64,000 nt of DNA from Terriglobia bacterium (lineage in GTDB: Bacteria; Acidobacteriota; Terriglobia; Terriglobales; Acidobacteriaceae), in contig JAIQFT010000043.1 in the NCBI GenBank assembly GCA_020073185.1, positions 1-64,000 of the forward strand, read 5' to 3'. The notes beneath the pieces are model-generated. The model was not told the origin of the DNA, ran no database searches, and saw only the letters and a list, made by a program, of their open reading frames with translations. This document shows, one piece after another, positions 31,651 to 64,000 of this stretch (its first letter is position 1; every line of letters begins with the position of its first letter). The translations under genes were made by a program, and so were the position numbers.

Positions 31651-31704
31651 GTATCAGGGTACCTCATGGCTTCCTTGTCCCCCTTCATTAGTGCCAACAC
31701 CAAC

Positions 31705-31718
31705 GTAACGGAAGTTAC
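31705..31718. promoter_or_regulatory. Small inverted repeat upstream of the PKS cluster
   Basis: GTAAC-GGAA-GTTAC lies 119 bases before the first cluster gene, in the only gap between the insertion sequence and the cluster. It might be an operator; nothing else supports this. Confidence 0.25.
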
Positions 31719-31836
31719 TGTCGAATTTCTCGTACAAAGGCAAGAAAAGTGATTATCTACATGATGTTCGGGCTGCTCTGGGCAGCGTCTTGGCCGAATC
31801 CGATCCAGAACGCCTGTTTGCACTCACGCGAAGTGT

Positions 31837-32646
31837 ATGTCCGTGGATACAAAACAAAATCAAGGGCAGCAGGAGTGCCGCCCTTGGCTTCTCCGATTCC
31901 GTCCAAATCCGTCAGCGGCATTGCAACTGTTCTGCTTCCCGTACGCTGGCGTAGGAGCCTCCGCCTATTTTTCCTGGGCGCATGAACTCGCTCCCAGCAT
32001 CGAGTTGCTGGCGGTCCAGCTTCCCGGCAGGGAGGACCGCATCCGGGAGAAGCCGTTCAACCGGCTGAGCGACATCGTGCCCTTAGCTGCCCAGGCCATT
32101 CGCCCGCTGGTGAGGGGGCCGTATGCCTTTTTCGGTCACAGCATGGGAGCTCTGATTGCATTCGAAGTCACCCGGTATCTGCGCGCGGAAGCTTTCCCTG
32201 GCCCGGCGCAGCTATTTGTGTCGGCGCGGCGAGCGCCGCCCCGCCCCGAACGGCTGGCCCGGATCCACCATCTTCCCGAGGCTGAGTTTCTGGCGGCATT
32301 GCGGCGACGCTGGAATGGGATTCCGCCGGCCGTACTGCGCGAACCCGAACTTCTCCAACTCGTTTTGCCCAGTCTGAGGGCGGATATGGCGGTCATCGAA
32401 ACCTACACCTACACCAACGGCGAGCGCCTCGACAGCCCCATCTCGGTGTTTGGGGCGGAGAACGACAAGGGAGTGGATCGCGACGACCTTCAGGCGTGGG
32501 GAGAGTTGACCAATGGGTTTTTCCGGCTGCGAATGTTCCCGGGTGACCATTTCTTTATCCGGAGCCAGTATCGGAAAGTTGCGCGCGCGGTGAGCGAGGA
32601 CTTTCTCGCGGTTCTGGACGATCGTCAAGGTGCCGCGCCATGCTGA
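31837..32646 (+). CDS. Type II thioesterase of the PKS cluster
   Basis: The 269-residue alpha/beta hydrolase has LQLFCFPYAGVGASAYFSWA, AVQLPGREDRIREKPF, the nucleophile elbow FFGHSMGAL (Ser102), RRWNGIPPAVL and MFPGDHFFI (His238), all typical of discrete editing thioesterases. These enzymes free stalled or mis-primed acyl groups from carrier proteins. The first 25 residues (KQNQGQQECRPWLL) precede the family core; the ATG at 31837 has only a weak ribosome binding site, so a later start is possible. It overlaps the next gene by 7 bases and opens the cluster. A second homologue lies at 59178. Confidence 0.88.
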   Translation: MSVDTKQNQGQQECRPWLLRFRPNPSAALQLFCFPYAGVGASAYFSWAHELAPSIELLAVQLPGREDRIREKPFNRLSDIVPLAAQAIRPLVRGPYAFFGHSMGALIAFEVTRYLRAEAFPGPAQLFVSARRAPPRPERLARIHHLPEAEFLAALRRRWNGIPPAVLREPELLQLVLPSLRADMAVIETYTYTNGERLDSPISVFGAENDKGVDRDDLQAWGELTNGFFRLRMFPGDHFFIRSQYRKVARAVSEDFLAVLDDRQGAAPC

Positions 32647-33499
32647 CCGATGCTCAGGAATGGAAAATGTCCAACCGCACCCCCGCCATGACCCAGGGGA
32701 GCGTGCACGTGTGGTTTGCGAGGCTCGATCATCCGGATGCAGTCATGCAAAGGCTGGCAGAGAACATCTCCTCCGACGAATACAAGCGGGCCATGCGCTT
32801 TCGGTTCCCGCAGGGCCGGAATCGATACATGGTCGCGCGGGCGCTTCTGCGAGAGGTTCTGGCCGGTTATTTGGGGAGCGAACCACGAGCTCTGTCGTTC
32901 CAGTATGGCCGTTACGGAAAGCCGACACTGGCGGGAACTTTCGCGGAAAGTGAGATCCGGTTCAACGTCTCGCACTCGTCGGCGTGGCGCAGGGGCGGGA
33001 GATTGGGGTCGATCTAGAATTCATCCGCCCGCTCAGCGACCTTCGCGATCTTGCGGAATCGTGCTTTTCGATCGCCGAGAAGGCTGCATTGGAAGCGTTG
33101 CCGGAGCACGAGAGGCTGCGCGGATTTTTCGATGGCTGGACCCGGAAAGAAGCTTACTTGAAGGCGACCGGCAAGGGGCTGTCATTTTCTCTGCAGTCCT
33201 TCGAGGTGTCGCTGGCGCCGGGACCTGGCCGGCGAGCGTTGATGCTTCCCGACGGCAGCAAGAATGAACCCGCATTGACGCTGGTATCGCTGGCACCGCG
33301 TGCAGATTATTCCGCGGCGGTCGTGGTTGATGGTTGTGATTGCCATCTCACGTGCGCTGAATGGCCGGTGGATGCTGTGCCGCACCGGCCACCCGTTCAG
33401 ACCATTCTTTGCCGTACTTCTGGGGAGCGCAAGTTTTCCTTATCCGTCGAGAGCGAGGAAGGTGGCGTGTTGGGTCAGCTCAGGATGGGAGTGAAATGA
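32640..33499 (+). pseudogene. Sfp-type 4'-phosphopantetheinyl transferase, split by frameshift
   Basis: The first frame (32640-33017, 125 residues) has the N-terminal half, including RFPQGRNRYMVARALLREVL, LSFQYGRYGKPTLAG and IRFNVSHSSA. The second frame (from 32984) continues VAQGREIGVDLEFI, CFSIAEKAALEAL and WTRKEAYLKATGKGL, the magnesium and coenzyme A motifs of the family. In normal Sfp proteins the SHS and GRE(V/I)GVD motifs are joined in one frame by about nine residues. Here only about four would remain, so a 3n+1 base deletion of roughly 16 bases near 32984 would explain both the shift and the gap. The enzyme would attach the arm to every ACP in this cluster. As read it cannot be one functional chain; an assembly error is possible. 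Confidence 0.8.
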
Positions 33500-36400
33500 T
33501 GTCAACCGCCGATGTCACTTCGCATAGTCCGCAGACGGATCTACCGAAGCCGGAGTCGAGCGCGGGCTTGCCGAGCTTGAGCCCCCAGGATTCAGGGTCT
33601 CGTGCCCCGATTGCAATCGTGGGCATCGGCTGCCGTTACCCGGGGGGCGTGGCCGGCCCGAAAGCCTTCTGGCGCCTTTTGCGGGACGGGGTGGATGCCA
33701 TCATGGAGATCCCCCCGGATCGCATGGACGTTGCCGCCTATTACGATCCGCGTCCCGCCACGCCCGGAAAAATGATGACTCGCTGGGGCGGCTTTCTGGA
33801 ACAAATCGATATGTTTGATGCCAGTTTTTTTGGCATCTCTCCACGCGAAGCCGACCGACTGGATCCGCAACAGCGCTTGCTATTGGAGGTGGCATGGGAA
33901 GCGCTGGAGGATGCGGGGCAGGCGGTCGATCGTCTGGGCGGCAGCCATGCCGGCGTCTTCATTGGAATGTGGCTGAATGACTATGAGGCCCGTCTTTTTG
34001 CGAATCCCGGCGGCGTCGATTTCTACATGACCACGGGGAGTGGCCGTTATTCCGCCTCGGGCCGCCTGTCCTATGTTCTGGGGTTGCAGGGTCCCAGTCT
34101 GACGGTCGACACGGCCTGCTCTTCGTCGCTGGTGGCGGTCCACTTGGCATGCCAGAGCCTGTGGAGGAGCGAATGTTCGATGGCATTGGCGGGGGGCGCC
34201 AATGTGATCTTGCAGCCCCACATCTCGATCGCCTACTCGCAATCGAAAATGATGGCGCCCGATGGCCGATGCAAGTTCGGAGACGCCGGCGCCAACGGCT
34301 ACGTTCGCAGTGAAGGAGCCGGCATTGTGGTGCTTAAGCCGCTCGCTTCCGCCTTGCGGGACGGCGACCCCATTTATGCCCTCATTCGAGGCAGTGCCGT
34401 AAACAATGACGGCCGGAGCAGTGGATACATGACCACCCCGGCGCGGGGTGGCCAGGAAGACTTATTGCGTTGGGCGTACCGCGATGCAGGAGTTTCTCCG
34501 GGCCAGATACAGTACGTGGAAGCTCATGGCACCGGGACGCTTGCGGGCGACCCGGTTGAACTCGGTGCTTTGGGGAGCGTCCTTTCCCCCGATCGCCCCC
34601 CGGGCAGACCTTGCTATGTCGGGTCCGTCAAAACTAACTTCGGTCACACCGAAGGGGCAGCAGGAATCGCCGGCCTCATCAAGACGGCCCTTATCCTCAA
34701 ACATCGCTTGATCCCCGCAAGCCTCCATTTGAAGGAGTTGAACCCAACCATTGCGTGGAAGGACTGTCAACTGGTCATTCCCCGCGCGTTGACGCCCTGG
34801 CCGCAAGATTCCGAGTCCGCCGTGGCCGGCGTCAGTGCATTTGGAATCGCCGGCACTAACGCTCACGTGGTCCTCGCGGAAGCCCCAGGAGAGCAGGCCG
34901 CTGAGGACACGCGCTCGCGTCCCGATTCCACTTGCTTGCTGCCTCTTTCCGCGCGTTCACCGGAAGCGTTGGCAGCGCTGGCTCGCGCATACCTTTCCGC
35001 GGTGAACGATGAAGAAGCGCCTCCCCTGCGCGACCTCTGTTTTACCGCCAGTGTGCGCCGCACTCATCACGAACATCGTATGGCGCTGGTGGCTGGAAGC
35101 CACGCGGATGCGAGTGACCGCTTGAAGGCCTTTTTGCTGGGGGAGAACCTGCCGGGAGTGTGCGCGGGAAAGGCGGAGCCGGACCGAACCCGGAAAGTCG
35201 TATTTGTGTGTCCTGGACAAGGGTCCCAATGGCCTGGGATGGGCCGGCAACTCATGAGCCGAGAAGCCGTTTTCCGGGAATCACTGGAGCGATGCGAGCA
35301 GGCGATGCGACCCTTTGTGGATTGGTCGCTGCAGGAGCAATTGAATCTCGATCCCAGTGCTCCCGGATATCGGATGAACGAAATCGATGTCATTCAGCCC
35401 AGCCTGGTGTCGATTGAAATCGCCCTGGCTGCGCTGTGGCGTTCCTGGGGGGTGGAGCCGGACGCCGTGGTGGGACACAGCATGGGCGAGGTGGCGGCGG
35501 CCTTTGTGGCGGAAGCCTTGAGTCTGGAAGATGCCATGCACATCATCTGCGCGCGCAGCTTCCTGTTGCGACGCGTGAGCGGCAAGGGGGCGATGGCCGT
35601 GGTGGCGCTTCCCTTGGATGAGGCGAAGGAGGCCCTGGCCGGGTTCGAGGACCGTGTGTCGGTTGCGGTGAGTAACAGCCCTCGCTCCACCGTGCTGTCG
35701 GGGGATCCGGCCGCGATGGGAAAGATTCTCGGGGAGTTGCAGGCCCGGGATGTCTTTTGCCGCCTGGTGAAGGTGGACGTGGCGTCGCACAGCCCTCAGA
35801 TGGATCTTCTCACGGACGACTTGCTGCGCACGCTGGACGGAATCCAACCTCGGCAGGCAAGAGTACCGGTTTATTCCACTGTGACTGCCCAGAGAAGTGA
35901 TGGATCAACCTTGGACGCTCGCTATTGGATGAGCAACTTGCGGCGCCCCGTGCTTTTTTCCAGAACCGTGCAACGGCTAGCGGAGGATGATCACACAGTT
36001 TTCATCGAGCTCAGCCCCCATCCCGTTCTGATGCCATCTATCGAAGACACCCTTCACGATCTGGGCCGGGAAGGCTATGCCATTCCTTCCCTGGAGAGGG
36101 AGAAGGATGAGCGGGCGAGTTTACTGGGCTCGATCGGCCGGCTCTATACCATCGGATATCCGGTGAATTGGGAGCGCCTTTTTCCTTCCGCAGGTAAGGT
36201 TGTTTCCCTCCCCGCTTATCCGTGGCAGCGTCAACACTTCTGGATGGAGACGCAACCTTCGAAAGGGAGCACCAGCCTTGGTTGCTTCGGTGAGGGTATT
36301 GGAAGCGTCCAGGATCATCCGCTGCTTGGGGTTCGTTTGCCGGACGTGGCAAATCTGCCAGGCAGCTTCCTTTGGCAGAACAAGCTCGACGCCCGTTTCC

Positions 36401-38706
36401 GCGACTTGCTACGCGAACATCATGTCGAGAGTTCAGCTCCCTTGCCGGAGACAGTCTATCTGGAGATGGCTGCAGCAGCCGGCGATGCGGCATTTGGTGA
36501 AAGGCTGCATCGGATCTCCGACTTGGCTATACATCAGCCTCTGACCTTGCCTGATGGTACGGAATCGAAAATGCAGTTCATTCTGACTTTGAGCGCGCCC
36601 GGGCTGGGATCATTCCAACTCTTCAGCCGTGAGTCCGACGCGACGAAGGAATGGAAGGCGCACGTCTCCGGGAAGATCGAGGCGGGGCAAGCAGAGGCGG
36701 ACTGGCTGTACGAGCTGGAGTGGAAGGAGAAACCGCTTCCACCCGATACCTTGAAGGTGCAGACCGGCCAAACTGGGCGCTGGCTGATATTTGCAGAGCG
36801 GGGAGGACTCGGCTCAGCAGTTGCGGAGTTACTGCAATCGCACGGCGAGGAGTGCGTCCTAGTGTTTGTCGGAGACTCCTTTCAAGTTCAAGGACCCGGG
36901 CGCTTTTGCGTCGACCCGCGACGATTGGAAGACATGCAGCGACTGCTTCATGAGGCGCTGGGCGCCGCACACCCCTCTTGCCGGGGCATCATCTACCTCT
37001 GGAGTTTGGATTCGACGACAACCCGTTCAGCGAGCTTCCTCCAGGATTCGCAAGCTCTCAGTTGTGACGGCGTGTTGCATTTGATCCAGTCGCTCGCCCA
37101 AATGGAATGGAAGACACCGCCTCGCCTATGGTTGGTCACCCGGGGCGCGCAAGCAGTCGAGCCGGCGGATGGGATGTCACTGTCCGTGGAGCAAGCTCCC
37201 TTGTGGGGCCTGGGACGGGTTATTGCGCTTGAGCATCCGAACCTGTGGGGCGGATTGGTGGATTTGCCTCGCTTCGAGAAGACATCAACTACGGCGGAGG
37301 TAGCAACCACGCTTCGGGAAGAGATCCTGGGCTCGGACGGCGAGGACCAGGTGGTGCGCCGTGAGGGGCGGCGCTATGTGGTGCGCCTGGTGAGATCTCA
37401 TGCCGGCGCCGCCGTAAGGAAACCGCTCACTCTCCTGCCTGATGCGACCTACTTGATAACCGGAGGTCTCGGAAGCCTGGGACTCCGTCTCGCCGGTTGG
37501 CTGATGTTACAGGGGGCACGACATTTAGTGCTGACGAGTCGGACGGGTCTGCCGGAGCGGTCCACATGGGCGTCCGTCCCTCCCGAGACCGAGCTCGGAA
37601 AGCGGATTGCCGCCGTCAGAACCTTGGAGGAACGTGGGGCGAAGATTCTCGTCGCCAAGGCCGATGTCGGCGACGAATCACAGATGTCGAGCCTGTGGGA
37701 GGAACTCGCCCGCCACCGCAGCCCACTTCGAGGAATTATTCACGCCGCTGGAATCGTGGGGTCACATGACCTGGTTGATCTCAAACCGGAGGAATTTCAC
37801 GAAGTCCTGCGCTCCAAGGTGACGGGGGCGTGGTTGCTCCACCAATTCACCCAAGCCAGGAAAGGCGCGGAGGCGCTGGATTTCTTTGTCCTGTTTTCCT
37901 CGGGAGCATCGGTATGGGGCTCTCAGGGGCTGGGTCATTATGCGGCGGCAAATCATTTCCTGGATGCCCTGTCTCACCATCGGGCTGGTCTTGGACTTCC
38001 GGCGTTGAGCGTTAATTGGGGCTGGTGGGAGGGTCCAGGGCTGGTCTCAGAGGAACTGGCCACGCTTTTCGGACGCATCGGCTTGAAGAGCCTTCCGCCC
38101 GAACAGGCCCTCGCAGCCCTCGCATACCTGTTGGAAACGGGCGCAACCCAGAAGACGGTGGCGGATGTGGACTGGAAGGTTTTTGGACCCATCTACGAGG
38201 CCAGGAAAAAGCGGCCATTTCTTGAACAGTTGACAGCCCGACCACAAGTCCAGGTGGAGGCGGGGGAGGTGGAAGAGAACAAGAGGTCGCGCCTGCTGCA
38301 GCGGATTCAGCAGGCCTCCCCGATCGATAAGAGGCCGCTCTTGCATAGCTACATCCGCACGCAGGTGGCTGAGATTCTGGGGTTTGGGTCATCCGATGGC
38401 GTCGATCCAAGGCAAGGCTTTTTCAAAATGGGCATGGACTCCATCATGACGGTGCAATTGCGAACGCGCCTGGAAGTGAGCCTGGGCTGCTCTCTTCCGC
38501 CGACCGTTGCTTTTGAATACCCGACCGTCGAGGCCTTGACGAAATACTTGGCTGAGACCGTGATTAAGTTGGAAGAGCCCGCGAGTGCTGCGGTCCTCTC
38601 GCTGTCACCCGAAAAGAAGAAAGAGGCGCCGGAGGTCCGGCAAGAAGCCTTTTCCGAAGAGGAACTGGTTGAGTTGCTCGCGAAGAAATTGGAACAGATC
38701 AGGTGA
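33496..38706 (+). CDS. Type I PKS module 1: KS-AT-(DH fragment)-KR-ACP
   Basis: The 1736-residue protein has KS at about 38-455 (Cys208 in VDTACSSSL, then EAHGTGT and NFGHTEGAAG). AT is at about 568-920 (Ser662 in GHSMGE), with the methylmalonyl-type motifs EIDVIQP and VASH. At 940-1060 there is only a DH N-terminal piece (EHHVESSAPLPETVYLEM) with no Asp half. A structural KR half (about 1065-1310) and catalytic KR (1315-1530) follow, with TYLITGGLGSLG and GHYAAANHFLDAL. Trp eight residues before the Tyr and no LDD motif point to an A-type KR. ACP is at 1612-1685 (Ser1649 in GMDSIM), then a helical tail ending EELVELLAKKLEQIR. No N-terminal docking helix and no loading module are seen. The start at 33496 or 33499 overlaps the PPTase stop. 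Confidence 0.92.
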   Translation: MMSTADVTSHSPQTDLPKPESSAGLPSLSPQDSGSRAPIAIVGIGCRYPGGVAGPKAFWRLLRDGVDAIMEIPPDRMDVAAYYDPRPATPGKMMTRWGGFLEQIDMFDASFFGISPREADRLDPQQRLLLEVAWEALEDAGQAVDRLGGSHAGVFIGMWLNDYEARLFANPGGVDFYMTTGSGRYSASGRLSYVLGLQGPSLTVDTACSSSLVAVHLACQSLWRSECSMALAGGANVILQPHISIAYSQSKMMAPDGRCKFGDAGANGYVRSEGAGIVVLKPLASALRDGDPIYALIRGSAVNNDGRSSGYMTTPARGGQEDLLRWAYRDAGVSPGQIQYVEAHGTGTLAGDPVELGALGSVLSPDRPPGRPCYVGSVKTNFGHTEGAAGIAGLIKTALILKHRLIPASLHLKELNPTIAWKDCQLVIPRALTPWPQDSESAVAGVSAFGIAGTNAHVVLAEAPGEQAAEDTRSRPDSTCLLPLSARSPEALAALARAYLSAVNDEEAPPLRDLCFTASVRRTHHEHRMALVAGSHADASDRLKAFLLGENLPGVCAGKAEPDRTRKVVFVCPGQGSQWPGMGRQLMSREAVFRESLERCEQAMRPFVDWSLQEQLNLDPSAPGYRMNEIDVIQPSLVSIEIALAALWRSWGVEPDAVVGHSMGEVAAAFVAEALSLEDAMHIICARSFLLRRVSGKGAMAVVALPLDEAKEALAGFEDRVSVAVSNSPRSTVLSGDPAAMGKILGELQARDVFCRLVKVDVASHSPQMDLLTDDLLRTLDGIQPRQARVPVYSTVTAQRSDGSTLDARYWMSNLRRPVLFSRTVQRLAEDDHTVFIELSPHPVLMPSIEDTLHDLGREGYAIPSLEREKDERASLLGSIGRLYTIGYPVNWERLFPSAGKVVSLPAYPWQRQHFWMETQPSKGSTSLGCFGEGIGSVQDHPLLGVRLPDVANLPGSFLWQNKLDARFRDLLREHHVESSAPLPETVYLEMAAAAGDAAFGERLHRISDLAIHQPLTLPDGTESKMQFILTLSAPGLGSFQLFSRESDATKEWKAHVSGKIEAGQAEADWLYELEWKEKPLPPDTLKVQTGQTGRWLIFAERGGLGSAVAELLQSHGEECVLVFVGDSFQVQGPGRFCVDPRRLEDMQRLLHEALGAAHPSCRGIIYLWSLDSTTTRSASFLQDSQALSCDGVLHLIQSLAQMEWKTPPRLWLVTRGAQAVEPADGMSLSVEQAPLWGLGRVIALEHPNLWGGLVDLPRFEKTSTTAEVATTLREEILGSDGEDQVVRREGRRYVVRLVRSHAGAAVRKPLTLLPDATYLITGGLGSLGLRLAGWLMLQGARHLVLTSRTGLPERSTWASVPPETELGKRIAAVRTLEERGAKILVAKADVGDESQMSSLWEELARHRSPLRGIIHAAGIVGSHDLVDLKPEEFHEVLRSKVTGAWLLHQFTQARKGAEALDFFVLFSSGASVWGSQGLGHYAAANHFLDALSHHRAGLGLPALSVNWGWWEGPGLVSEELATLFGRIGLKSLPPEQALAALAYLLETGATQKTVADVDWKVFGPIYEARKKRPFLEQLTARPQVQVEAGEVEENKRSRLLQRIQQASPIDKRPLLHSYIRTQVAEILGFGSSDGVDPRQGFFKMGMDSIMTVQLRTRLEVSLGCSLPPTVAFEYPTVEALTKYLAETVIKLEEPASAAVLSLSPEKKKEAPEVRQEAFSEEELVELLAKKLEQIR

Positions 38707-38732
38707 AACCGCCGGTGGCGGCGGGTTTTTGG

Positions 38733-38738
38733 AAGGAG
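38733..38738 (+). promoter_or_regulatory. Ribosome binding site deciding the PKS2 start
   Basis: AAGGAG lies nine bases before the in-frame TTG at 38748. The alternatives, GTG at 38703 (overlapping the PKS1 stop) and ATG at 38775, have no comparable site. Confidence 0.55.
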
Positions 38739-38747
38739 ATAAGGATT

Positions 38748-41700
38748 TTGGAAAACGATAAAGGGACCGATTCCATGAATCACTTATCAGAACCCAAGGA
38801 CCGGCGGGCCGTGCTGCAACGGGCGCTCCGGGCTATGGAGGAAATGCAGGCCAAGCTCGATGCTCTCGAGCGTGAGAAGAGGGAACCGATCGCGATCATT
38901 GGAATGGGCTGCCGGTTTCCCGGCCATGCCAGTAGTCCGGAGGCTTACTGGAATCTGTTGCGCGACGGGGTGGATGCCATTCGCGAAGTTCCTGCGGATC
39001 GCTGGGACATCGACGCTTTTTATGATCCCGATCCCGATTGTCCGGGCAAGATGTACACGCGGATGGGCGGATTCCTGGACGAGGTCGACAAGTTTGACGC
39101 GTATTTTTTCGGGATTTCTCCCCGCGAGACTCGGAAGACGGATCCCCAACAGCGATTGGTGCTGGAAGTGAGCTGGGAGGCGCTGGAGGACGCCGCCATT
39201 GCTCCCAAGAGCCTGCTGGGGAGTCAGACCGGCGTTTTTATTGGTATCACAAACTACGATTATGCCCGGATTGTAGAGCGCGCGGGCCTGGAGTTCATTG
39301 ACGCCTACCACCTCACCGGGAATTGCCTCAACTTTGCGGCCGGGCGAATTTCGTATTCTTTTGGATTGCAGGGACCCGCGATGGCGGTGGATACAGCCTG
39401 CTCAACCTCCGGGGTCACAATCCATCTTGCCTGCCAAAGCCTCCGCAACCGGGAATGCAACCTGGCCCTGGCGGGCGGAGTCAACCTGATCCTGTCGCCT
39501 GAAATCAGCATTACCTCGACCAAGGCAAGGACCCTTTCTCCCGACGGCTACTGCAGGACTTTCGACTCCAGGGCCAACGGTTATGTTCGGGGTGAAGGTT
39601 GTGGCGTTGTTGTGCTGAAGCGCTTATCCGACGCTCTGGCCGACGGCGATAATATCCGTGCCGTCATTCGCGGCTCGGCGGTGAATCAAGATGGCGCCAG
39701 CAGTGGAATTACGGTTCCCAACAAGCTGGCCCAGGCCGAAGTGATGCGCCAGGCGCTGGAGAGAGCTGGGCTAGAACCGGATCAGGTGGATTTTGTAGAG
39801 ACCCACGGGACTGGAACCCCTTTAGGAGATCCGATTGAGGTGCGGGGTTTAGCCTCGGTCTACAGCCGGGGACGATCTGCAAATCATCCGCTGATTATCG
39901 GGACCGTGAAGACCAATGTGGGCCACTTGGAATCGGCCGCGGGTGTAGCCGGGTTGATCAAAGTGGTCCTTTCGCTGCAGCACCGCACCATTCCAGCTCA
40001 CTTGCATTTCAAGAAGCTCAATCCCGCGATCACGCTTGACGATATTCCTGCACTCATCCCCGTCCAGGCAATGCCCTGGCCCAGCCGAGACAAGGCGCAC
40101 GTGGCTGGCCTGAGCTTTTTCGGTGGAAGCGGGACCGTTGCCCACATGATCGTGGAGGAGGCCCCGGAACTTCATTCTGCCCCTGAGGATAACTCCCGAA
40201 CCTCACACTTGTTCTGTCTGTCCGCAAAGAATCCAGTCGCCTTGAATGAACTGGCGGGTCGCTACGAAGGCTATCTCGCGACCCCAGCGGCGGCATCACT
40301 GGCTGACGTGTGTTACACGGTCGATGCAGGACGGTCGCATTTCAATCATCGACTCTCCGTCGTCAGCTCAACTTCAGAGGAGTTGCGGGAACGGCTGCTT
40401 GATTACAGAGCGGGCCACGAGGCTGCAGGACTGTCGTGCAGAGAGGTTCCGGGTATCCAGGCACCCAAGGTTGTTTTCCTGTTCACGGGACAGGGGGGGC
40501 AGTACTTGAATATGGGGCGCCGGCTGTACGAGGGCGAGCCGATCTTCCGAAGCGTCGTCGATCGCTGTGATGAATGCCTGCGCCCGCATCTGCCAATGTC
40601 CTTGCGGTCGGTGTTGTACCCGCAGCCGGGGGCGAGCACGCCCTTGGATGAGACCCAGTACACGCACGTGGCGATGTTTGCAGTCCAGTACGGGCTGGCC
40701 GCGTTGTGGCGTTCCTGGGGGGTAGAGCCCGCGCTGATCATGGGCCACAGCGTCGGGGAGATCGTAGCCGCTACGGTGGCCGGGCAGATGAGCTTTGAGG
40801 ACGGACTCAAACTGATGCGTGAGCGGGGACGTCTCATGCAAAGCCTTCCGGCCGCCGGGATGATGGCATCCCTGCTCGCCGACGAAAAGCGGGCCGCCGC
40901 TGCCCTGGCCCCCTACCGGGATCGAGTGGCTATTGCCGCCGTCAACGGGCCGGAGAGCACAGTGATTTCCGGAGAAAAGGCGGCGGTGCAGGCGATTGTG
41001 AAGCAGTTGGAGAGGGAGGGCACCAAGGTCAAATTACTAAAGGTGTCCAATGCCTTTCATTCGCCGCTGGTGGAGCCCGTGTTGGCGGAATTCGAACAGA
41101 CTGCGAAAGAACTGAATTACGCCGCTCCGCAGGTTGCTTTGTTTTCCAGCATGCGCCTGGAAATGGTGGGAGAACAGAATCTGCTGGATGCGACGTACTG
41201 GCGGCAGAATCTTCGGAACACGGTGCGTTTTTCCGAGGCCATGCAGAAGCTTTATGAACAAGGCTATCGCTTGTTTGTGGAGATTGGGCCAACTCCCATT
41301 CTGGTCAGCATGGGTAGCCAATGCGTGCCGATCGGTGAAGGGGTCTGGCTGCCTTCGCTGCGGGAAGATCGGGACGATTGGCAACAATTACTGGAAAGCC
41401 TGGGGCAGCTCTACGTGAATGGCGTCGATGTGAACTGGGATGGGTTCTACCAGGATCGTCGAGGCCGCAAGATCGCCCTGCCCACCTATCCCTTCCAACG
41501 CGAGCGGTACTGGGTGGATTCCCCATCCCGCGCCGAGCAGCCCATAGCCGGCCTTGCCGCGAAGGCTTCTGGTACAAGCCATCCATTGCTGGGTAGTCGA
41601 TTGCGTTCCGCAATCCCCCTCTTCGAACAGCAACTCAGTGTTACTCGTCTTCCCTTTCTCAAAGACCATTGCGTTTTTGGCAAAGCAGTTCTTCCAGCCA

Positions 41701-46637: not shown

Positions 46638-46742
46638 TCTCGCGCATGGGTATGCATTGCCCATGGGTGGACGACCGGTGAGTTCATTCTTGAGGCAAGC
46701 CAAGAAAGCTTGCCATGGCAGACAAAGAGTAGAGAACAACAA

Positions 46743-51206: not shown

Positions 51207-51274
51207 GCCGGAACCACCTCGCAGCGGGCTGGGCGGTATACGAATGTCAAGTTTCCGGTAAGAGGAGATTTTCA

Positions 51275-54200: not shown

Positions 54201-57200
54201 TCCCCGCCACCGGCTACCTGGAAATGATTTTGGCATCCGCAAAGGAGGCCTTTGGACCCGGGATTCCCACGATCAAGGAAATGGATATTCGGGAAGCAAT
54301 GATCATTGAGGAGGGAGAGGTCCGGAGGGTTCAGATTGCGATAACACCTCCAGAGGGACCGGAGGCGTCTTTTCAGCTTGCCAGCCTCATTGCCAGCGAG
54401 TCGAACGCCGAAGCGAAATGGAAGGTTCATGCGGCGGGAAAGATTCGGATTGAAGAACCCGAGGCGGATTCTCAAGCCCCAGCATTGCCCTCGTTGGAAG
54501 AGGCGAGATCGCGATGTCAGCAAGAGATTCCCGTGGAACCCTACCATCAACAGTTCGCGGCTCTGGGGATGTACCTAGGCCCCAGCTTCAAGGGATTGGA
54601 GAGGCTTTGGAGCGGCAAGAATGAAGTCCTGGGTCAAGTGCGCCTTGTGCCAGAGATCGCCTCGGAAGCGCCGCTTTATCAGATTCATCCCGGGATGCTT
54701 GATCCCTGCCTGCAACCCTTCGCCGCTGCAGCATTGAGTCCCGAGGATCTGGCGTCGGGTGGCGTGATCTACATGCCGGTTGGGGTGGACAGTTACAGGG
54801 TCTATCGAGAGCCCGGTGAAGGCTTGTGGAGCCACGTCGTTGCCGCGCAAGGCAAGCATCAGAATGAAGTGAAGAACACCCTCCATTTTGACGTTTTCGT
54901 GTTCGATTGCGCTGGAGCCTTGGTAGCTGAAGTGAGAGGACTCTCGCTCCGGCGAGTGGATCGTAAGGCACTCGCAAAGTCCCAGGAAAAACCTCTCCAG
55001 GACTGGCTTTATCAATTGAGCTGGAAAGAGGCGCCCTTGCCGAATGAGATGGGCAGGACGGCCTCTGTTTGCATTCCCAGTCCCCCTCAGATTATCGAGG
55101 AGCTCCGCCTTTACACCAATCGGCACCGATCGGAGCCCGGGCTGGCGGAGTTTGCGTCCCTCTTTCCCCGCCTGGAAACCTTAAGCACGCACTATGTTTA
55201 TCGGGCTCTGAGTCAGTTAGGTTGGACAATACAGAAGCATGAACGTTTCACCACTGAATCGAAAGCAACTGAACTGCAATTGCCTGAAAAGTATTTCCGG
55301 CTGTTGGGAAGAATGCTGGAGATGCTGCAACAGGATGGAATTCTCAAGCGAGTGGACGGGGTGTGGGAGGTTAACCAGTTGCCTCCAGCGCTAGAACCTG
55401 AGATGTCGGCTGACCGGCTCTTGGAACAATACCCTGATTGCTCGGCTGAATTGAGAATGACGGTCCGGTGCGGCGAGCACTTGGCCGAAGCGATGAAAGG
55501 CGACTGTGAACCCCTGGACCTGCTCTTCCCGGATGGTTCCATGGAGGACATCGAAAAACTCTACCGCGATTCACCGTTCTCTCGTTTTTACAATGGAATG
55601 ATTGAAGAGGCGGTTGAGGCTCTTGTCACACGCTTGCCTTCGGACCGGCCGCTCCGGGTTCTCGAGATCGGCGCCGGGACCGGGAGTACCACCGCGTCTG
55701 TGCTGCCCAAACTTCCGGCACAGCAGACGCAATATGTTTGCACCGACGTTACCCCGCTCTTTACTTCAAAGGCCCGGGAAAAGTTCAGCAACTTCCCATT
55801 CGTGAAATATCGAGTTCTGGACATCGAGAAAGATCCTTTGGCCCAGGGCTTTGACGCTCACTCGTACGACATCGTGATTGCGGCCAACGTCCTGCATGCC
55901 ACACAGGATCTGCAACAGACCCTCAAGAACGTCCAGACGCTGTTGGCTTCGCAAGGCCTGCTCCTGCTACTAGAAGGGACGCGGCCGCTTCGTTTCGGCG
56001 ACCTCATCGTAGGTCTGACGGAGGGTTGGTGGAGGTTTAAGGACACAGAGCTGCGTCCTTTCCACGCCTTGATTTCAGATCGGAAATGGCAGGCGCTCCT
56101 TGCGAGCTGTGGATTCACCGATGTGGTTATCAGCCCAGAAGTCGAACCGGACGGTGTTCTCGCCAATCAGTCTTTAATCCTAGCCCGCGGTCCCCGCCCT
56201 GCGGGCGAAGAGACCAAGCCATCCACCTCCGCCCCGGAGATGAGCGGACGCTGGATGATTTTTTCCGATCGCAGCGGTCTCGGAGAGAGCCTGTGCGCGT
56301 TGCTGAAGCCGGCAGCCGGGAGCTGCTGCACAGTCATCCCGGGAAGTCAGTATGAAACCCTGGGCGAGGCCAGTTACCAAATTAACGCCGACAACCCCGA
56401 TGATTTCCAAGAATTGCTCCGAGCAGCGGGAGGCTCCAATGAATCTCCCCTCAAAGGAGTGGTGTATCTCTGGCCTCTGGATACTCCCAACCCCGAGATT
56501 ACGTCCTGGGAAGACCTGAACGGGAAGATTCAATGGGGATGTGAAAGTTTGCTCCACTTGGTCAAGGCACTGGTTTCAGAAGGCAACTCCAAGGCGGACA
56601 GCCTATGGATCGTTACCCGGGGAGCACAATCCGTGAACTCTTCCGCGGAACGGGTTGCCTTGTCGCAGGCTCCAGTCTCAGCCATGGGAAGTACCATTGG
56701 GCTGGAGTATCCCGAACTCCGCTGTGCCAGGATTGACTTGGATCCCGCGGGGGCACCGGGCGAAGCAGACGACTTACTGCAAGAGGTCCAGTCCAACGAG
56801 GAGGAAACCCTGCTTGCTTTCCGCCAGGGACGTCGCCATGTGGCCCGGCTGAGTCGGGTGTCGGATTCGCCACCTGCGGACAAGAGTCTAGCGCCCGGCA
56901 GCCTGCCGGCGTATCAATTGCAGACTTCCGCGCCCGGTATGCTGGACCGTCTCGCGCTGCAACCTTTGCCGCGCCGGCATCCCGGGGCGGGCGAAGTGGA
57001 GGTCGCAGTCCTCGCGACGGGTTTGAATTTTCGAGACGTTCTGATGGCCCTGGGACGGTATCCGGGCGGCTCCGATGTTTTTGGATACGAATGCGCCGGA
57101 AAGATTGCGGCTCTGGGTGCAGGAGTACGCCATTTCCAATTGGGACAAAGAGTGCTCGTGATGGGACCGGGAAGCTTCGCTTCTCACATGACTCTCCCGG

Positions 57201-59149
57201 TTGACCATGTCATGCCGGTCCCGAATTCTCTGAGTGACTATGAGGCCGCAACCATTCCCAGTGCTTTCCTTACGGCGCATTATGCCCTCTCTAACTTGGG
57301 CAAGATCGCCGCAGGTGATCGGGTACTGATTCACGCCGCTGCCGGAGGGGTGGGGTTGGCGGCGGTGCAACTGGCGCAACGGGCAGGCGCAGAGGTTTTT
57401 GCCACCGCAGGGAGTCCGCAGAAGCGAGCCTACCTCAAATCCCTGGGTGTCGCTCACGTCATGGACTCGCGGACCCTGGACTTCGCCTCCGAGATCATGC
57501 AGCTCACGCAGGGAAAAGGGGTGGATCTCGTACTGAATTCTCTGGCGGGCGAGTTCATTGAGAAAAGCTTCTCCGTCATGGCAACCAATGGCCGATTTTT
57601 GGAAATCGGCATGACCGATATCTGGGACGACGCTCGAGTGTCCCAACTGAACAAGAACATCTCTTATTACCCCATCAATCTGGCAGCCACGTTTCGGGAG
57701 AGTCCACGCCTGATAGCAGACATGCTGCATGAACTGCTGCAGGAATTCGAAGCGGGACGTTTGAAACCCCTGCCGCTCAAGGTCTTCCCCGTTGATCAAG
57801 TGATCCAGGCTTTCCGATACATGGCACAAGCCAGGCACATTGGAAAGATCGTGGTGACTCATGAAAGTCCGGCTATGCGACTCTCCCAGAAATCGGGAGC
57901 ACTTTCGGGGGAGAGGCACGGTTTGGATGGTGATGCCAGCTACTTAATCACTGGGGGACTGGCAGGCCTGGGGTTGCTGGTGGCGCAATGGATGGTGGAG
58001 CAGGGTGCGCGTCATCTGGTAGTGACGGGGCGAAGCCAGCCTTCGGAACAAGCCCTCCAGGTGATTCGTGGTTTGCAGGAGACGGGCGCCGAGGTGGTCA
58101 TAGCACAAGGCGATGTTTCAGATCGAAGCCATCTGGACGAGGTCTTTTCAAAGTTCGGTCGTGCGCTGCCGCCCCTGCGTGGAATTGTCCACTCGGCGGG
58201 AACTCTGGATGACGGAGTGCTTTTGCATCAGAGTTGGCAGCGCTTCCAAACAGTGTTTGCCCCGAAGGTAAGTGGATCATGGCAGCTCCATACAATGACA
58301 CAAGATCTGCCCTTGGACTTCTTTGTCATGTTTTCTTCGGCGGTATCACTGCTGGGCTCGGCAGGTCAAGGCAACCATGTGGCCGCCTGTGCCTTTGAAG
58401 ATGGCCTGGCCCACTACCGGTGCGCCCTGGGTTTGCCGGCGTTAAGCATCAACTGGGGACCATGGGCCGAAGTAGGCGCTGCAACCCGGGGAACGGTGAG
58501 CCAGCGTCTTCAGTTGAAGGGGTTTCAGGCCATCGAACCGGAGCAGGGATTGCGGGTCCTTGAGGAACTGCTGGGGCACAATCGAATCCAAGTCGGAGTC
58601 TTGTCGGCGGATTGGCGGCAGTACTGCGATTCCCTCCCCCGCAAATTCCGGTCCGCGTTCCTTTCCGAATTGGTCCGCAAGACAGAAGTCCCCGCCCCGA
58701 GCGGACAACGGAAGACCGGGCAGCCCCAGGCGTTATTGCAGCAACTGAATCAGGTCCCGCCCGCGAAGCGCCAAAAGCTCTTGCTCGAGTTCGTGGGGGG
58801 GCAGGCGGTCAAGATATTGGGACTCGGTTCCACACAATCCCTAGACTACAAACAACCGCTGAGTGATCTCGGGCTCGACTCACTGATGGCCGTCGAGTTA
58901 AGAAGCCTGTTGAGTACAGAGCTCGGCCTGGCGCGCGGTTTGCCCGCCACCCTGGTCTTTGACTATCCAACGATCGCCGCCCTGGCAGACTACCTGGCGG
59001 AAGAGGTGTTGTCGGCGGAGAAGCCTCCGGCGGCCAAGTCTGAAGCTCCGCAGAAAGAAGAAAAGTTCTCCGACATCTTGGACCGTATCGAGGGTCTCTC
59101 GGAAGAAGAAGTGGATCGACTGTGCACCCAAGAGAAAGCGGTTAAGTAG
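51275..59149 (+). CDS. Type I PKS module 4: KS-AT-DH-cMT-ER-KR-ACP
   Basis: The 2624-residue protein starts at GTG after AGAGGAGATTTTCA. It has a docking helix (SPVKQAYLKLEELQSRLDA) and KS with Cys210 (LDTACSSSL). AT has Ser660 and the malonyl-type motifs ETAYTQ and SHAFH. DH has His968 (HQAFGLAVFP) and Asp1143 (HPGMLDPCLQ). cMT has LEIGAGTGSTT near 1463 and ER has HAAAGGVGLAAVQLA near 2021. KR carries LDDGV and the same odd GNHVAAC (His2368, Cys2372) as PKS2. ACP has Ser2536 ([10 protein letters not shown]), and the tail IEGLSEEEVDRL is a docking-like helix. Domain order and the DH-to-KR part follow PKS2 closely, but the AT is of another lineage, which suggests module duplication with AT exchange. 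It would add a methyl-branched, fully reduced unit. Confidence 0.93.
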   Translation: MNGEAKGKNPLSPVKQAYLKLEELQSRLDAVEQAKREPIAIVGIACRFPGGSHDPEAFWRFLREGQDAVREIPADRWDIEAYYDPNPGTAGKMYTRSGAFLDRVDLFDPQFFGIAPREAIGMDPQQRLLLEVTWEALERSGLYPDKLSGSRTGVFVGLCTSDYAGLQLRSLDVTKLDAYHASGIAHSIASGRLSYVLGLQGPCVTLDTACSSSLVAVHLACQSLRGRECNLALAGGVGVILSPDMFIALSKASMLAPDGRCKTFDASADGYARGEGCGVVVLKRLSDARAEGDQILALVRGSAINQDGPSSGLTAPNGPSQTSVIRDALANGGVRPEEVTYVETHGTGTSLGDPIEVQALGAAYCESRPPDHPLLIGAVKSNIGHLEGAAGVAGLIKLVMAMQHGEIPPSLHVKKPNPFIPWEELSVKVTTRLTPWEPSGKTRMAGLSSFGFSGTNAHIVVEEAPTPELVRAEVERPRHLLALSAMSEEALAALAGRFHQHLSTHPDEGIENICYTANSGRAHWPHRMAIFADSSAQMCEKLGKLTSAALPAGVFKGQAKTSEGLKVAFLFTGQGSQYVGMGRELYETQPTFRRVLDQCSQILQDELDPPLLSVLYPEPGQSSPLDETAYTQPALFSLEYALAQLWRSWGILPAVVMGHSVGEYVAACVAGVFSLEDGLKLIAARGRLMQQKCESGLMAAVSGDEPRVAKELEGYGNHVAIAALNGPGNTVISGRRETVQELIKKFVEAGMKATPLTVSHAFHSPLMEPMLEAFEKVAAKVKHYPPRLALISNLTGQMVSPEEISKDYWVRQVREAVNFSASVQTVQDKGYQVFLELGPNPTLLGMASKCLPEGFGTWLPSLRKGREEWQQMLESLVALYVQGAEVDWRGFDGDYQRRRVVLPTYPFQRKRYWFEVPEGRAAGKKDGNIPRKTLGHPLLSHRLDSPFIKDVLIESYISSATLPWLKDHQAFGLAVFPATGYLEMILASAKEAFGPGIPTIKEMDIREAMIIEEGEVRRVQIAITPPEGPEASFQLASLIASESNAEAKWKVHAAGKIRIEEPEADSQAPALPSLEEARSRCQQEIPVEPYHQQFAALGMYLGPSFKGLERLWSGKNEVLGQVRLVPEIASEAPLYQIHPGMLDPCLQPFAAAALSPEDLASGGVIYMPVGVDSYRVYREPGEGLWSHVVAAQGKHQNEVKNTLHFDVFVFDCAGALVAEVRGLSLRRVDRKALAKSQEKPLQDWLYQLSWKEAPLPNEMGRTASVCIPSPPQIIEELRLYTNRHRSEPGLAEFASLFPRLETLSTHYVYRALSQLGWTIQKHERFTTESKATELQLPEKYFRLLGRMLEMLQQDGILKRVDGVWEVNQLPPALEPEMSADRLLEQYPDCSAELRMTVRCGEHLAEAMKGDCEPLDLLFPDGSMEDIEKLYRDSPFSRFYNGMIEEAVEALVTRLPSDRPLRVLEIGAGTGSTTASVLPKLPAQQTQYVCTDVTPLFTSKAREKFSNFPFVKYRVLDIEKDPLAQGFDAHSYDIVIAANVLHATQDLQQTLKNVQTLLASQGLLLLLEGTRPLRFGDLIVGLTEGWWRFKDTELRPFHALISDRKWQALLASCGFTDVVISPEVEPDGVLANQSLILARGPRPAGEETKPSTSAPEMSGRWMIFSDRSGLGESLCALLKPAAGSCCTVIPGSQYETLGEASYQINADNPDDFQELLRAAGGSNESPLKGVVYLWPLDTPNPEITSWEDLNGKIQWGCESLLHLVKALVSEGNSKADSLWIVTRGAQSVNSSAERVALSQAPVSAMGSTIGLEYPELRCARIDLDPAGAPGEADDLLQEVQSNEEETLLAFRQGRRHVARLSRVSDSPPADKSLAPGSLPAYQLQTSAPGMLDRLALQPLPRRHPGAGEVEVAVLATGLNFRDVLMALGRYPGGSDVFGYECAGKIAALGAGVRHFQLGQRVLVMGPGSFASHMTLPVDHVMPVPNSLSDYEAATIPSAFLTAHYALSNLGKIAAGDRVLIHAAAGGVGLAAVQLAQRAGAEVFATAGSPQKRAYLKSLGVAHVMDSRTLDFASEIMQLTQGKGVDLVLNSLAGEFIEKSFSVMATNGRFLEIGMTDIWDDARVSQLNKNISYYPINLAATFRESPRLIADMLHELLQEFEAGRLKPLPLKVFPVDQVIQAFRYMAQARHIGKIVVTHESPAMRLSQKSGALSGERHGLDGDASYLITGGLAGLGLLVAQWMVEQGARHLVVTGRSQPSEQALQVIRGLQETGAEVVIAQGDVSDRSHLDEVFSKFGRALPPLRGIVHSAGTLDDGVLLHQSWQRFQTVFAPKVSGSWQLHTMTQDLPLDFFVMFSSAVSLLGSAGQGNHVAACAFEDGLAHYRCALGLPALSINWGPWAEVGAATRGTVSQRLQLKGFQAIEPEQGLRVLEELLGHNRIQVGVLSADWRQYCDSLPRKFRSAFLSELVRKTEVPAPSGQRKTGQPQALLQQLNQVPPAKRQKLLLEFVGGQAVKILGLGSTQSLDYKQPLSDLGLDSLMAVELRSLLSTELGLARGLPATLVFDYPTIAALADYLAEEVLSAEKPPAAKSEAPQKEEKFSDILDRIEGLSEEEVDRLCTQEKAVK

Positions 59150-59177
59150 CAGGAGAAAGCAGTTAAGAGGGAGAGAA

Positions 59178-59957
59178 ATGCGCGCCATCCATCCATGGAT
59201 CTTTCGTCCCAGGCCGAATCCAGCGCCCCATCTCCGGCTCTTTTGCGTTCCTTATGCAGGGAGAGGGGCTTCGTTGTATCGCGACTGGCCGGAGCACGTG
59301 AACTCCCAAGTGGAATTGTGTGCCCTGCAACTGCCCGGTCGAGAGAACCGACTGCGAGAGCCGCCATTCACGCGGATTGCAGACGCAGTGCAAGAGGCGG
59401 CCCAGGTTCTTCAATCGTACCTGGATGTCCCCTTTGCGTTATTTGGTCATAGCATGGGAGGGTTGATCTGCTTTGAACTTGCCCGTCGGCTGCGCAGCCT
59501 ATACGAGATCGCACCTGTTCATTTGTTCATTTCGGCACGCCGGGCTCCGCAATTGCCCGATCCGCGACCTCCGCTCTGCCCTCTGCAGGACGAACAGTTC
59601 GTTGCAGAGATTCGCCGACGTTACAACGGAATCCCTCGCGAGGTCTTGGGGGACCCGGAGTTGATGGAGTTGTTGCTGCCCATGCTACGAGCGGATGTGG
59701 AGATGCTCGAGACCTACACTTATGCACCCGGTCCTAATCTCGAGTGTCCCATCACCGCTTTCGGAGGGTGGGAGGATACCGAGGCGCGCTTTGAGGAATT
59801 GGCAGCCTGGTGTGAACAGACGAATGCCCGATTCCAAACAAAAATGTTTCCGGGAGATCATTTCTTCCTCCAGTCTGCGCAAACCCAGATTCTGGAGACG
59901 ATTTCCCAGCAGTTGAATCTGGAGGTGGATTTGACTCCAGGAGCTTCAAGCCGTTAA
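59178..59957 (+). CDS. Second type II thioesterase of the PKS cluster
   Basis: The 259-residue alpha/beta hydrolase starts MRAIHPWIFRPRPNPAPHLR after AAGAGGGAGAG. It has LFCVPYAGRGASLYRDW, LPGRENRLREPPF, the nucleophile elbow ALFGHSMGGL (Ser92), RRRYNGIPREVL and MFPGDHFFL. It is homologous to the enzyme at 31837 but clearly diverged. It would edit carrier proteins or perhaps take part in release, since none of the visible modules carries a terminal thioesterase. It lies 28 bases after PKS4 and 12 bases before PKS5, inside the same operon. The frame open upstream to 58959 is inside PKS4 and not used. Confidence 0.9.
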   Translation: MRAIHPWIFRPRPNPAPHLRLFCVPYAGRGASLYRDWPEHVNSQVELCALQLPGRENRLREPPFTRIADAVQEAAQVLQSYLDVPFALFGHSMGGLICFELARRLRSLYEIAPVHLFISARRAPQLPDPRPPLCPLQDEQFVAEIRRRYNGIPREVLGDPELMELLLPMLRADVEMLETYTYAPGPNLECPITAFGGWEDTEARFEELAAWCEQTNARFQTKMFPGDHFFLQSAQTQILETISQQLNLEVDLTPGASSR

Positions 59958-59969
59958 GGGCTAAATATT

Positions 59970-62900: not shown

Positions 62901-64000
62901 TTGGCTGCGGCAGCGGAAGTTCTAGGACCCGGGCCGCACATGGTCGAAGACCTGGTAATCAAGGAGGCGTTGGTACTCGATGATGCCGATCGCACCGTGC
63001 AGACCGTCGTCACCCAGGAAGGACAGGGGACGGGGGTCTTCCAGGTGTGCAGCCGAACTAACAACGGGGATTCCAAGCTCTGGCGCAAGCACGCGAGTGC
63101 GCGGCTACGGCCCACGCTGACAGACGAGCTGTCCCACCAAGGCTTGGACCAAGCGAAAACGCGCTGCCCGGAACCAGTCTGCCTGGACGCGCTCCGGGAA
63201 CAACTCCGGGCGCTTGGTGTCGAGATTCCAGCGATTGATTCCGTCGACAGAGCCTGGCAGGGTACGTCCGAGGTGTTGGCGCATCTTTGCCTGCCGGCGG
63301 ATCAGGCAGAGCAACGTTCGCGCTATTGCTTCGATCCGGCAGCGGCAGATGCTGCCCTGTTGTCCTTCGCCGCTTTACTGTCCACAACCCCTGCTGAATC
63401 GACCGAAGGAAGCTACTTTCTGGCGGGCGTCGACCGGGTCGTTGTTCAGGAACGGCCGGGCGAGAAGCTTTGGAGCTATGCCAAGCTGCGGCCCGTCAAT
63501 GAGAAACCGGTGCGACTGTATATGGGTGATCTGTTCATCTACAGCGAGGCGGGTGCGATGATTGCCGCCTTCCACGGGTTGCGGTTTCAATGGGCAAATA
63601 AGGCGTCGCTAGCGGTTGCCCAATCGCAGGCGGGTCCGGAGAAGGACTGGTTCTACCGCTTGGAGTGGGAACCCACAAATGCCCGCGGGAATTCCGACAT
63701 AAAGGACAGTGATCGCTCGATACGATCGTCCGTGGACGTTGCCATCGAACGGCTGCCTTCCCAGGCGGAGGCGCATGTTCGGGAGTATCGGCTCGAAGAG
63801 TATGAGGCGATGCGTCCAGACCTCGATCGCGCCTGCGCTGGCTACATCGTGAACGCATTCCAGCAGTTGGGCTGGGATCTGGTCCCCGGCGATCGGAAAC
63901 AGGCGGATGATCTTGCCAGTCGCTTAGGTGTCGCGGCGAAACACAGGCGCCTGTTTGGCCGGCTTCTGAAGGTACTCGATGGCGAAGGGATACTGAAGGC
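59970..64000 (+). CDS. Type I PKS module 5, partial: KS-AT-DH-like-cMT start
   Basis: The first 1343 residues are present; the gene continues past the window end. MADFLERISKLPPKKLALLVRDLQQRL is a docking helix, after AAGGG. KS has Cys208 ([14 protein letters not shown]). AT has Ser657 (GHSLGEFG), but YAQPANF and HGYH (residues 757-760) replace the usual selectivity motifs. A DH-like region follows with AHRIGEMAVLPG (His960 kept, the usual Gly at +4 is Glu) and CFDPAAADAALLSF instead of HPxxxDxxxQ, so activity is doubtful. The last residues (YIVNAFQQLGW, LGVAAKHRRLFGRLLKVLDGEGIL) match the start of the methyltransferase regions of PKS2 and PKS4. From the AT on, the sequence is more Ala-rich and less like the other modules. 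Confidence 0.9.
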   Translation, partial: MADFLERISKLPPKKLALLVRDLQQRLDSIEKDKREPIAIVGIGCRFPGGANSPEEFWRLLQDGVDAISEVPPERWDLDSIYDPEPGKPGKTCSRYGGFLKEVDQFDPLFFGISPREAASMDPQQRLLLEVVWETLENAGQSPEKLSETQTGVFVGISGTDYMRVMLACDPKELDMYLATGGALSTASGRISYLLGLHGPSISVDTACSSSLVAFHLACQSIRSGESKIALACGVNLVLNPAVAIALSRSHMLAPDGRCKAFDASGDGFVRSEGCGAVVLKNLSDAVANRDRILALVRGTAANQDGRSSGLTAPNGPSQEAVVRAALAAANTTPSEIDYIETHGTGTSLGDPIEAGALGNVFGRDRDRLPPLTIGSVKTNLGHLESAAGIVGLIKTVLALEREEIPPSLHFKSPNPHIPWDQLPIVVAVKPTPWVRGTRPRLAGVSSFGFSGTNVHVILAEAPIQGVAGSEQDRPAHVYTVSAKSETALVENVRRHAQALGGEHMSLANACYTANAGRAHFPHRVACMSRSLDELRVQLEAFAAGELAPGSVSGNVRGSSPTEVVFLFPGQGAQYPGMTRKLYQSESTFRQAMDRCAEALKGRIEKPLLEVLFESGPEDSSLHDPVYAQPANFAVEYAAAEMWRSWGVAPSAVVGHSLGEFGAACVAGMCSPEDAIRLVATRGRLMQGLPPTGAMAAVHAREELVAAAIAELGGRGAIAAVNHPEQTVVSGLRASVEAVAELMQAQGIEVEWLRAYHGYHSPEMQPMADELVRAARGAKFDAPAISFVSTMTGKPLLSGKTLEPEYWGQQVVAPVHFVAAVKSLRELRYSVFLDMGPAPVLGGMGRYCYPDGVWLATLRPGREDWEQALDTLAALHVAGVAIDWEAFDRPYPRQRIALPTSVFERQRYWAAEPDLEQPALLKTAHVGTAVHPLLGVRVDHAMPTFETRLGPAGVPAVGAHRIGEMAVLPGPVYFEMALAAAAEVLGPGPHMVEDLVIKEALVLDDADRTVQTVVTQEGQGTGVFQVCSRTNNGDSKLWRKHASARLRPTLTDELSHQGLDQAKTRCPEPVCLDALREQLRALGVEIPAIDSVDRAWQGTSEVLAHLCLPADQAEQRSRYCFDPAAADAALLSFAALLSTTPAESTEGSYFLAGVDRVVVQERPGEKLWSYAKLRPVNEKPVRLYMGDLFIYSEAGAMIAAFHGLRFQWANKASLAVAQSQAGPEKDWFYRLEWEPTNARGNSDIKDSDRSIRSSVDVAIERLPSQAEAHVREYRLEEYEAMRPDLDRACAGYIVNAFQQLGWDLVPGDRKQADDLASRLGVAAKHRRLFGRLLKVLDGEGILK

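Follow-up and report, generated by a model that had tools for sequence, protein, structure and literature searches.

Methyltransferase-bearing modules occur in several forms in type I polyketide synthases (PKSs), and a 2008 survey lists four of them, KS-AT-MT-ACP, KS-AT-MT-KR-ACP, KS-AT-DH-MT-KR-ACP and KS-AT-DH-MT-ER-KR-ACP (PMC2613160). A role for a His-Glu dyad is described in one study for the C-methyltransferase (cMT) domains of CurJ, citrinin synthase and PsoF (PMC9821293); another reports that a fungal cMT domain lacking this His was inactive, and describes the highly reducing PKSs of fungi as iterative (PMC12828468). Here we describe a gene cluster from a Terriglobia bacterium that encodes three of these four module types. 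It lies in the window, by which we mean the whole stretch that was analysed, positions 1 to 64,000 of contig C43, which is 68,856 bases long and belongs to a draft genome of 4.66 Mb and 121 contigs, and it continues beyond the window into nonribosomal peptide synthetase (NRPS) genes. The cluster probably encodes a cis-AT modular PKS-NRPS assembly line in which each gene carries a single module. As such it is not a new type of natural-product pathway but an uncharacterised member of a familiar one.

PKS genes and in-line methyltransferases

The original prediction of five consecutive single-module PKS genes was confirmed, the five (PKS1 to PKS5) running from 33496 to 66833 and thus past the edge of the window (Table 1). 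Gene order, domain order and the states of catalytic residues could be read directly from the DNA. KS, AT and ACP domains with their catalytic motifs were present in all six PKS genes, of which C43 has five and contig C82 (described below) the sixth; this is the composition of modular cis-AT type I synthases, and the Cys-His-His set of the KS was likewise found in six of six. Pfam and alignments also bore out the order KS-AT-DH-cMT-ER-KR-ACP that had been proposed for PKS2 and PKS4. Domain matches in the PKS genes had Pfam E-values as low as 1e-100 and each gene is a single open frame, so that an origin of these calls by chance or artefact is excluded; the stop codons or frameshifts in several modules that had been raised as a possible objection were found in none.

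The genes for PKS1 and PKS2 overlap by 4 bases, and the later gaps from PKS2 to PKS5 measure 72, 68, 28 and 12 bases. Because the gaps and overlaps are this short, we infer that the cluster genes on C43 form one operon. For PKS1 the start at 33496 is likelier than 33361, since the ATG there overlaps the stop of the preceding open reading frame (ORF).

The number of cMT domains, earlier put at three or more and probably four, is exactly four by Methyltransf_12 matches, one in each of PKS2 to PKS5, with the core of the last lying beyond position 64000. The S-adenosylmethionine (SAM) motif and the His-Glu pair are kept in all four, and in a 20-row alignment that includes them His266 and Glu292 are invariant and 26 residues apart. 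Compared with solved structures, a comparison that covers the PKS4 domain, the cMT matched CurJ (3.9e-91) ahead of fungal PksCT (1.4e-44) and LovB (3.2e-29). The prediction that the cMTs of PKS2 to PKS5 place SAM-derived methyl branches is supported by these sequence features.

Table 1. Positions of the cluster genes and associated features; numbers without a prefix refer to contig C43.
Feature	Position	Strand	Evidence and remarks
DDE transposase	30439..31650	+	DDE_3 4.9e-18, HTH_32 6.5e-16; 5' edge, flank, outside the pathway
Discrete type II-like thioesterase 1	31837..32646	+	Thioesterase 8.9e-45; GHSMG nucleophile motif
4'-Phosphopantetheinyl transferase (PPTase), split over two frames	32640..33499	+	AASDHPPT_N 6.5e-11 (N-terminal part, in 32640-33017); ACPS 2.3e-18 (C-terminal part, other frame, 32984-33499)
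PKS1, KS-AT-half DH-KR-ACP	33496..38706	+	Pfam and alignments; ORF opens at 33361
PKS2, KS-AT-DH-cMT-ER-KR-ACP	38703..46637	+	Pfam and alignments; cMT core 43143-43445
PKS3, KS-AT-cMT-ACP, without KR	46710..51206	+	Pfam and alignments; cMT core 50121-50420
PKS4, KS-AT-DH-cMT-ER-KR-ACP	51275..59149	+	Pfam and alignments; cMT core 55661-55963
Discrete type II-like thioesterase 2	59178..59957	+	Thioesterase 5.2e-47 (on longer ORF from 58959); GHSMG
PKS5, KS-AT-DH-cMT-KR-ACP	59970..66833	+	Crosses window edge at 64000; cMT core 64311-64613
KR domains of PKS2 and PKS4	45426-45959, 57935-58471		His-type
Duplicated A-domain stretches	L018:1-924 with L018:7918-8841; L006:9137-9857 with L018:7125-7845		
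Final thioesterase	L018:9439-10599		TubC_N 6.5e-21; GYCAG nucleophile motif

Continuation into NRPS genes and the predicted assembly line

Past position 64000, where the original prediction had proposed to look, C43 completes PKS5 at 66833 and then encodes NRPS1 (C-A) directly 3' of it, with an A domain that is cut by the end of the contig at 68856. Contig C82 (10,732 bases) starts inside an A domain and continues with a PCP, PKS6 (KS-AT-KR-ACP), NRPS2 (C-A-PCP) and a TubC_N-thioesterase protein. Several observations make us confident that C82 is the continuation of C43. On the AMP-binding profile C43 ends at position 194 and C82 picks up at 225; measured against the A domain of NRPS2, 72 bp are absent between the end of the one and the start of the other; and in a search of the genome C43 and C82 each gave one C domain, the only two found. 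NRPS1 and NRPS2 have A domains that are near-identical in DNA (96.8% across 721 bp, 94.7% across 924 bp), a likeness that is a recent duplication or conversion, with the contig break inside it, and a repeat of this kind would explain why the assembly broke here. With NRPS1 adjoining PKS5 the locus is a PKS-NRPS hybrid, to which the PCP of NRPS1, PKS6 and NRPS2 are linked through the proposed join.

The AT signatures, read by hand, are HAFH in PKS4 and PKS6, NAFH in PKS2, NSFH in PKS3, VASH in PKS1 and HGYH in PKS5. We take these to be malonyl-type in PKS2, PKS4 and PKS6, near-malonyl in PKS3, methylmalonyl-type in PKS1 and ambiguous in PKS5; two matches to methylmalonyl-CoA mutase were found in the genome. 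The DH and ER motifs of PKS2 and PKS4 are intact. In PKS1 the second half of the DH is missing, and the DH of PKS5, which has both halves, is degenerate, lacking the HxxxG glycine, the DxxxQ glutamine and the GP motif. The A-domain code of NRPS2, also hand-read, is DVWHISLVDK and the readable part of the NRPS1 code is the same, a code that we assume to stand for serine.

Also found on C82 was a final thioesterase that carries an N-terminal TubC_N docking domain, with matches to the AerJ and TubC structures. Its nucleophile motif has Cys in the place of the nucleophile, as does its nearest solved relative, 4zxh, in the printed alignment. This docking-domain enzyme with its Cys nucleophile comes after a module whose predicted substrate is serine. 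In other systems, thioesterases of the Cys type can make beta-lactones.

From these readings, and granted the join between the contigs, we infer substrates, reduction states and a product for the line. PKS1 would extend a starter unit with a methylmalonyl-like AT and, with a KR that is active by sequence and half a DH, leave a beta-hydroxy group. PKS2, PKS3 and PKS4 would each add a malonyl unit whose alpha carbon is methylated from SAM, after which PKS2 and PKS4 would reduce their units, fully if the KRs work, and PKS3 would leave a ketone. The fifth unit, from PKS5, would be C-methylated and, because of the degenerate DH, probably left as an alcohol. NRPS1 may then attach a serine-like amino acid, which malonyl extension and reduction by PKS6 would turn into a 4-amino-3-hydroxy-acid, a statine-like unit, before NRPS2 attaches a second serine-like residue and the TubC-type docking-domain thioesterase releases the chain. 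The two discrete thioesterases are both intact and probably clear stalled carriers. In the likely product a short methyl-branched acyl chain would be linked to serine, then to a malonyl-derived hydroxy unit and finally to another serine; hand-read codes and general rules underlie both the assignment of serine and that of the statine-like unit.

The original prediction had pictured the product as a mimic of a polypropionate that takes its methyls from SAM. The second half of that picture stands, as SAM methylation in four modules is indicated by the His-Glu pairs, the malonyl-type ATs of PKS2 and PKS4, the near-malonyl AT of PKS3 and the kinship of the PKS4 cMT to CurJ. A product that simply resembles a polypropionate is not supported, given that the line runs on into NRPS-PKS-NRPS-thioesterase, that PKS3 would leave a beta-ketone, that the AT of PKS1 is methylmalonyl-like and that PKS5 has an ambiguous AT signature and a degenerate DH.

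Ketoreductase variants and alternative readings

A number of features weigh against an intact line of this kind. A loading module was not seen on C43 or C82, the rest of the genome not having been searched for one, and C82 ends 133 bp past the thioesterase, so more genes may be missing. The predictions for the A and AT domains come from reading motifs and not from trained predictors. Both parts of the PPTase that the original prediction named are recognisable, but the gene is split in the present assembly by a frameshift near 32985, which could be genuine or introduced by the assembly; other ACPS-family matches, on contigs C16, C37 and C51, may or may not serve the line. In the ketoreductases of PKS2 and PKS4 (KR2 and KR4) the catalytic Tyr is replaced by His and the Asn by Cys (K-S-H-C in place of the usual K-S-Y-N), and KR4 also has TGGLA where TGGxG is expected. 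The KR of PKS5 (KR5) has Ser for Asn, and the KR of PKS6 has Arg for Lys. If KR2 and KR4 were dead, PKS2 and PKS4 would make alpha-methyl-beta-keto units, and the description of the cluster as highly reducing, which depends on these two KRs without the catalytic Tyr and Asn, would be wrong.

This variant was placed in context by an alignment-based survey of the KRs of complete modules at 76 loci, on the contigs of the cluster itself, on public plasmids and named contigs or in relatives, picked for a cMT or an ER. Two unreadable rows were dropped and three near-duplicates removed, and 30 KRs whose module starts in another ORF were left out, with only that of genome G409, the sole His counterexample, put back. 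Where a cMT precedes the KR, 27 KRs have His and 25 have Tyr (n = 52, including our own two), while the other KRs comprise one His and 61 Tyr (n = 62), nine of the 61 sitting in modules with a cMT after the KR. Asn is kept in 24 of the His-type KRs of cMT modules and is Ser in one, and the combination of Cys and His was seen only in PKS2 and PKS4. On the KR tree the residue changes seven times and there are three independent pairs on supported branches, too few for significance; as it appears in these sequences, the association between His and cMT is confounded by ancestry, and power is too low to control for it. Further loci with His-type KRs include L052-L054, L087 and L088. No published link between His-type KRs and cMTs was found among the literature matches listed, nor in the available text of the KR motif paper PMC11228615, which names Q as a variant residue at the catalytic Tyr position.

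The residues of KR2 and KR4 suggest the alternative that PKS2 and PKS4 never reduce, their KRs dead and their DH and ER domains idle, so that the chain would be a C-methylated poly-beta-ketone at those units. We consider this unlikely. All but one of the 28 His-type KRs are in cMT modules, where 21 of the 27 share the module with an ER, and a His that recurs and is retained speaks for function and points to a variant that works. In five of the nine KRs with a cMT after them and in one with a cMT before, Cys stands at the Asn position alongside Tyr, and by itself it need not mean a dead KR.

It is also conceivable that PKS2 and PKS4 exemplify a separate His-for-Tyr class of KR, tied to an upstream in-line cMT and maybe reducing beta-ketoacyl chains only when these are alpha-methylated, which would make methylation the gate to reduction, within a line that joins four SAM-methylated units to a statine-like, serine-rich tail. 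We offer this as speculation with little chance of being right in full. If it were true that His-type KRs act only after methylation, the residue would be a sequence marker for methylation-gated reduction, a question of polyketide programming.

The frameshift in the PPTase, the half DH of PKS1, the motifs lost from the DH of PKS5 and the residue changes in KR2, KR4, KR5 and the KR of PKS6 would all be expected of a decayed or silent cluster from which no product is made. Such decay seems quite improbable, however, as the 43.7 kb of PKS and NRPS coding sequence on C43 and C82 contains no internal stop, the KS, AT and ACP motifs are intact in all six PKS genes and the cMT motifs in all four domains, the His variant of the KR recurs in many modules equipped with DH and ER as well, and a two-part ACPS-family match is present on C51. 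Repeated use of PKS2 or PKS4, or both, in the style of iterative fungal highly reducing synthases would suit their identical domain order and the several relatives that are single proteins of the order KS-AT-DH-cMT-ER-KR-ACP-KS-AT (L052, L053, L054), but it is very improbable for six modules with five domain sets in gene order, closely spaced or overlapping genes on C43 and NRPS genes downstream, which fit one use per module, and for a PKS4 cMT that is closer to CurJ than to the fungal enzymes.

Genomic setting and comparison with known systems

The transposase gene at the 5' edge of the cluster is presumably IS630-like, to judge from its Pfam domains, and no inverted repeat of at least 14 bp was found around it in 30050-31950. 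A tRNA-Pro (cgg) at 27609-27685, about 4 kb 5' of the cluster with peptidase and transposase genes between, marks a possible island boundary. Elsewhere in the window a gene for a heavy-metal RND efflux pump of the CusA/CzcA family (5694-9017) scored above the curated cut-off. Contig C51 holds a separate PKS locus (L019:2020-11013), a 2,998-amino-acid ORF whose order KS-AT-ACP-KR-DH is unlike that of the cluster modules and which adjoins an ORF with two ACPS-family matches. Of 18 matches to TIGR03436 (acidobact_VWFA) in the genome, 17 exceeded the cut-off, while four of 14 control genomes gave matches and none of these exceeded it, which indicates that the lineage is probably Acidobacteriota; no 16S gene was found in the genome.

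The domain order of PKS2 and PKS4 had been described as known mainly from fungi. This is true of published work, where fungi are the subject of most of the 25 titles listed out of 32 papers that contain the order, but an architecture confined to fungi is ruled out for genomes, where the 76-locus sample contained the order KS-AT-DH-cMT-ER-KR in 31 bacterial modules outside the cluster; the 2008 survey also includes it (PMC2613160). Its carriers include Gloeocapsa sp. PCC 7428 (two modules), Nostoc sp. C052, Streptantibioticus cattleyicolor and Nonomuraea gerenzanensis (one each). Among 399 genomes of the same class, a cMT-ER profile was matched from position 10 or before to 966 or beyond, of 992, at 20 places in 16 other genomes. 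The best match outside our own genome scored 654 bits in 398 family genomes, three congeners included, and 720 in the class; our own PKS2 and PKS4 copies score about 2,100 by construction, the profile having been built from them. SwfA was rejected as a bacterial precedent, its order being KS-AT-DH-ER-KR-ACP without a cMT (PMC3908369). Modules of the order KS-AT-DH-cMT-ER-KR are shown by these counts to be ordinary in bacteria, and what the cluster adds is an uncharacterised, mostly complete C-methylating PKS-NRPS pathway.

The original prediction did not recognise a known pathway, and in all the comparisons made here identities stayed below 60%, and none of them brought up a close relative of the cluster as a whole. 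A contig scan, which used two peptide patterns only and may miss near genomes, gave 10 loci with a best identity of 43%. The succession of a cMT-KR PKS, C-A-PCP and KS-AT-KR-PCP recurs in four genomes of the same family (G409, G892, G019 and G037), at 34-54% identity to the cluster in the pairs compared. In G409 a KS-AT-cMT-ACP gene lies two places upstream; the reducing modules seen in this genome lack a cMT, and no AT was recognised in one G409 gene or in the cMT-KR gene of G019. The cluster looks like one member of a diverse, patchily distributed set of hybrids in the family, with a transposase gene at its edge. Three further loci in the family (L086, L056 and L057) have modules with a cMT or DH-ER-KR and no recognised AT beside cis-AT modules, and are possibly mixed cis- and trans-AT lines.

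Outside the family, plasmid pGLO7428.01 of Gloeocapsa sp. PCC 7428 (NC_019746.1) has two KS-AT-DH-cMT-ER-KR-ACP genes that are 42-44% identical to PKS2 and PKS4 over nearly their full length, a KS-AT-KR-PCP gene and then NRPS genes. Unlike our cluster, these genes are preceded by an AMP-binding gene that includes a carrier domain, a possible loader; an LLM oxidoreductase is also encoded there, and the stretch seen holds no KS-AT-cMT-ACP gene. The fungal enzymes LovB and PksCT share the cMT fold family, and PKS2 and PKS4 the LovB-type domain order, but the similarity of the cMT is far below that to CurJ, and PKS2 and PKS4 are not stand-alone enzymes, standing as they do among six consecutive PKS modules. 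Mycocerosic acid synthase supplied the nearest solved KR to KR4 and the second-best match, after CurL, for the whole of PKS4; we understand it to make methyl-branched reduced chains with methyls from methylmalonyl-CoA and without a cMT. The nearest solved relative of the PKS4 cMT is that of CurJ from the curacin pathway (PDB 5thy), which shares the His-Glu pair and whose module order we take to be KS-AT-DH-cMT-KR-ACP, the order of PKS5, to which PKS2 and PKS4 add an ER.

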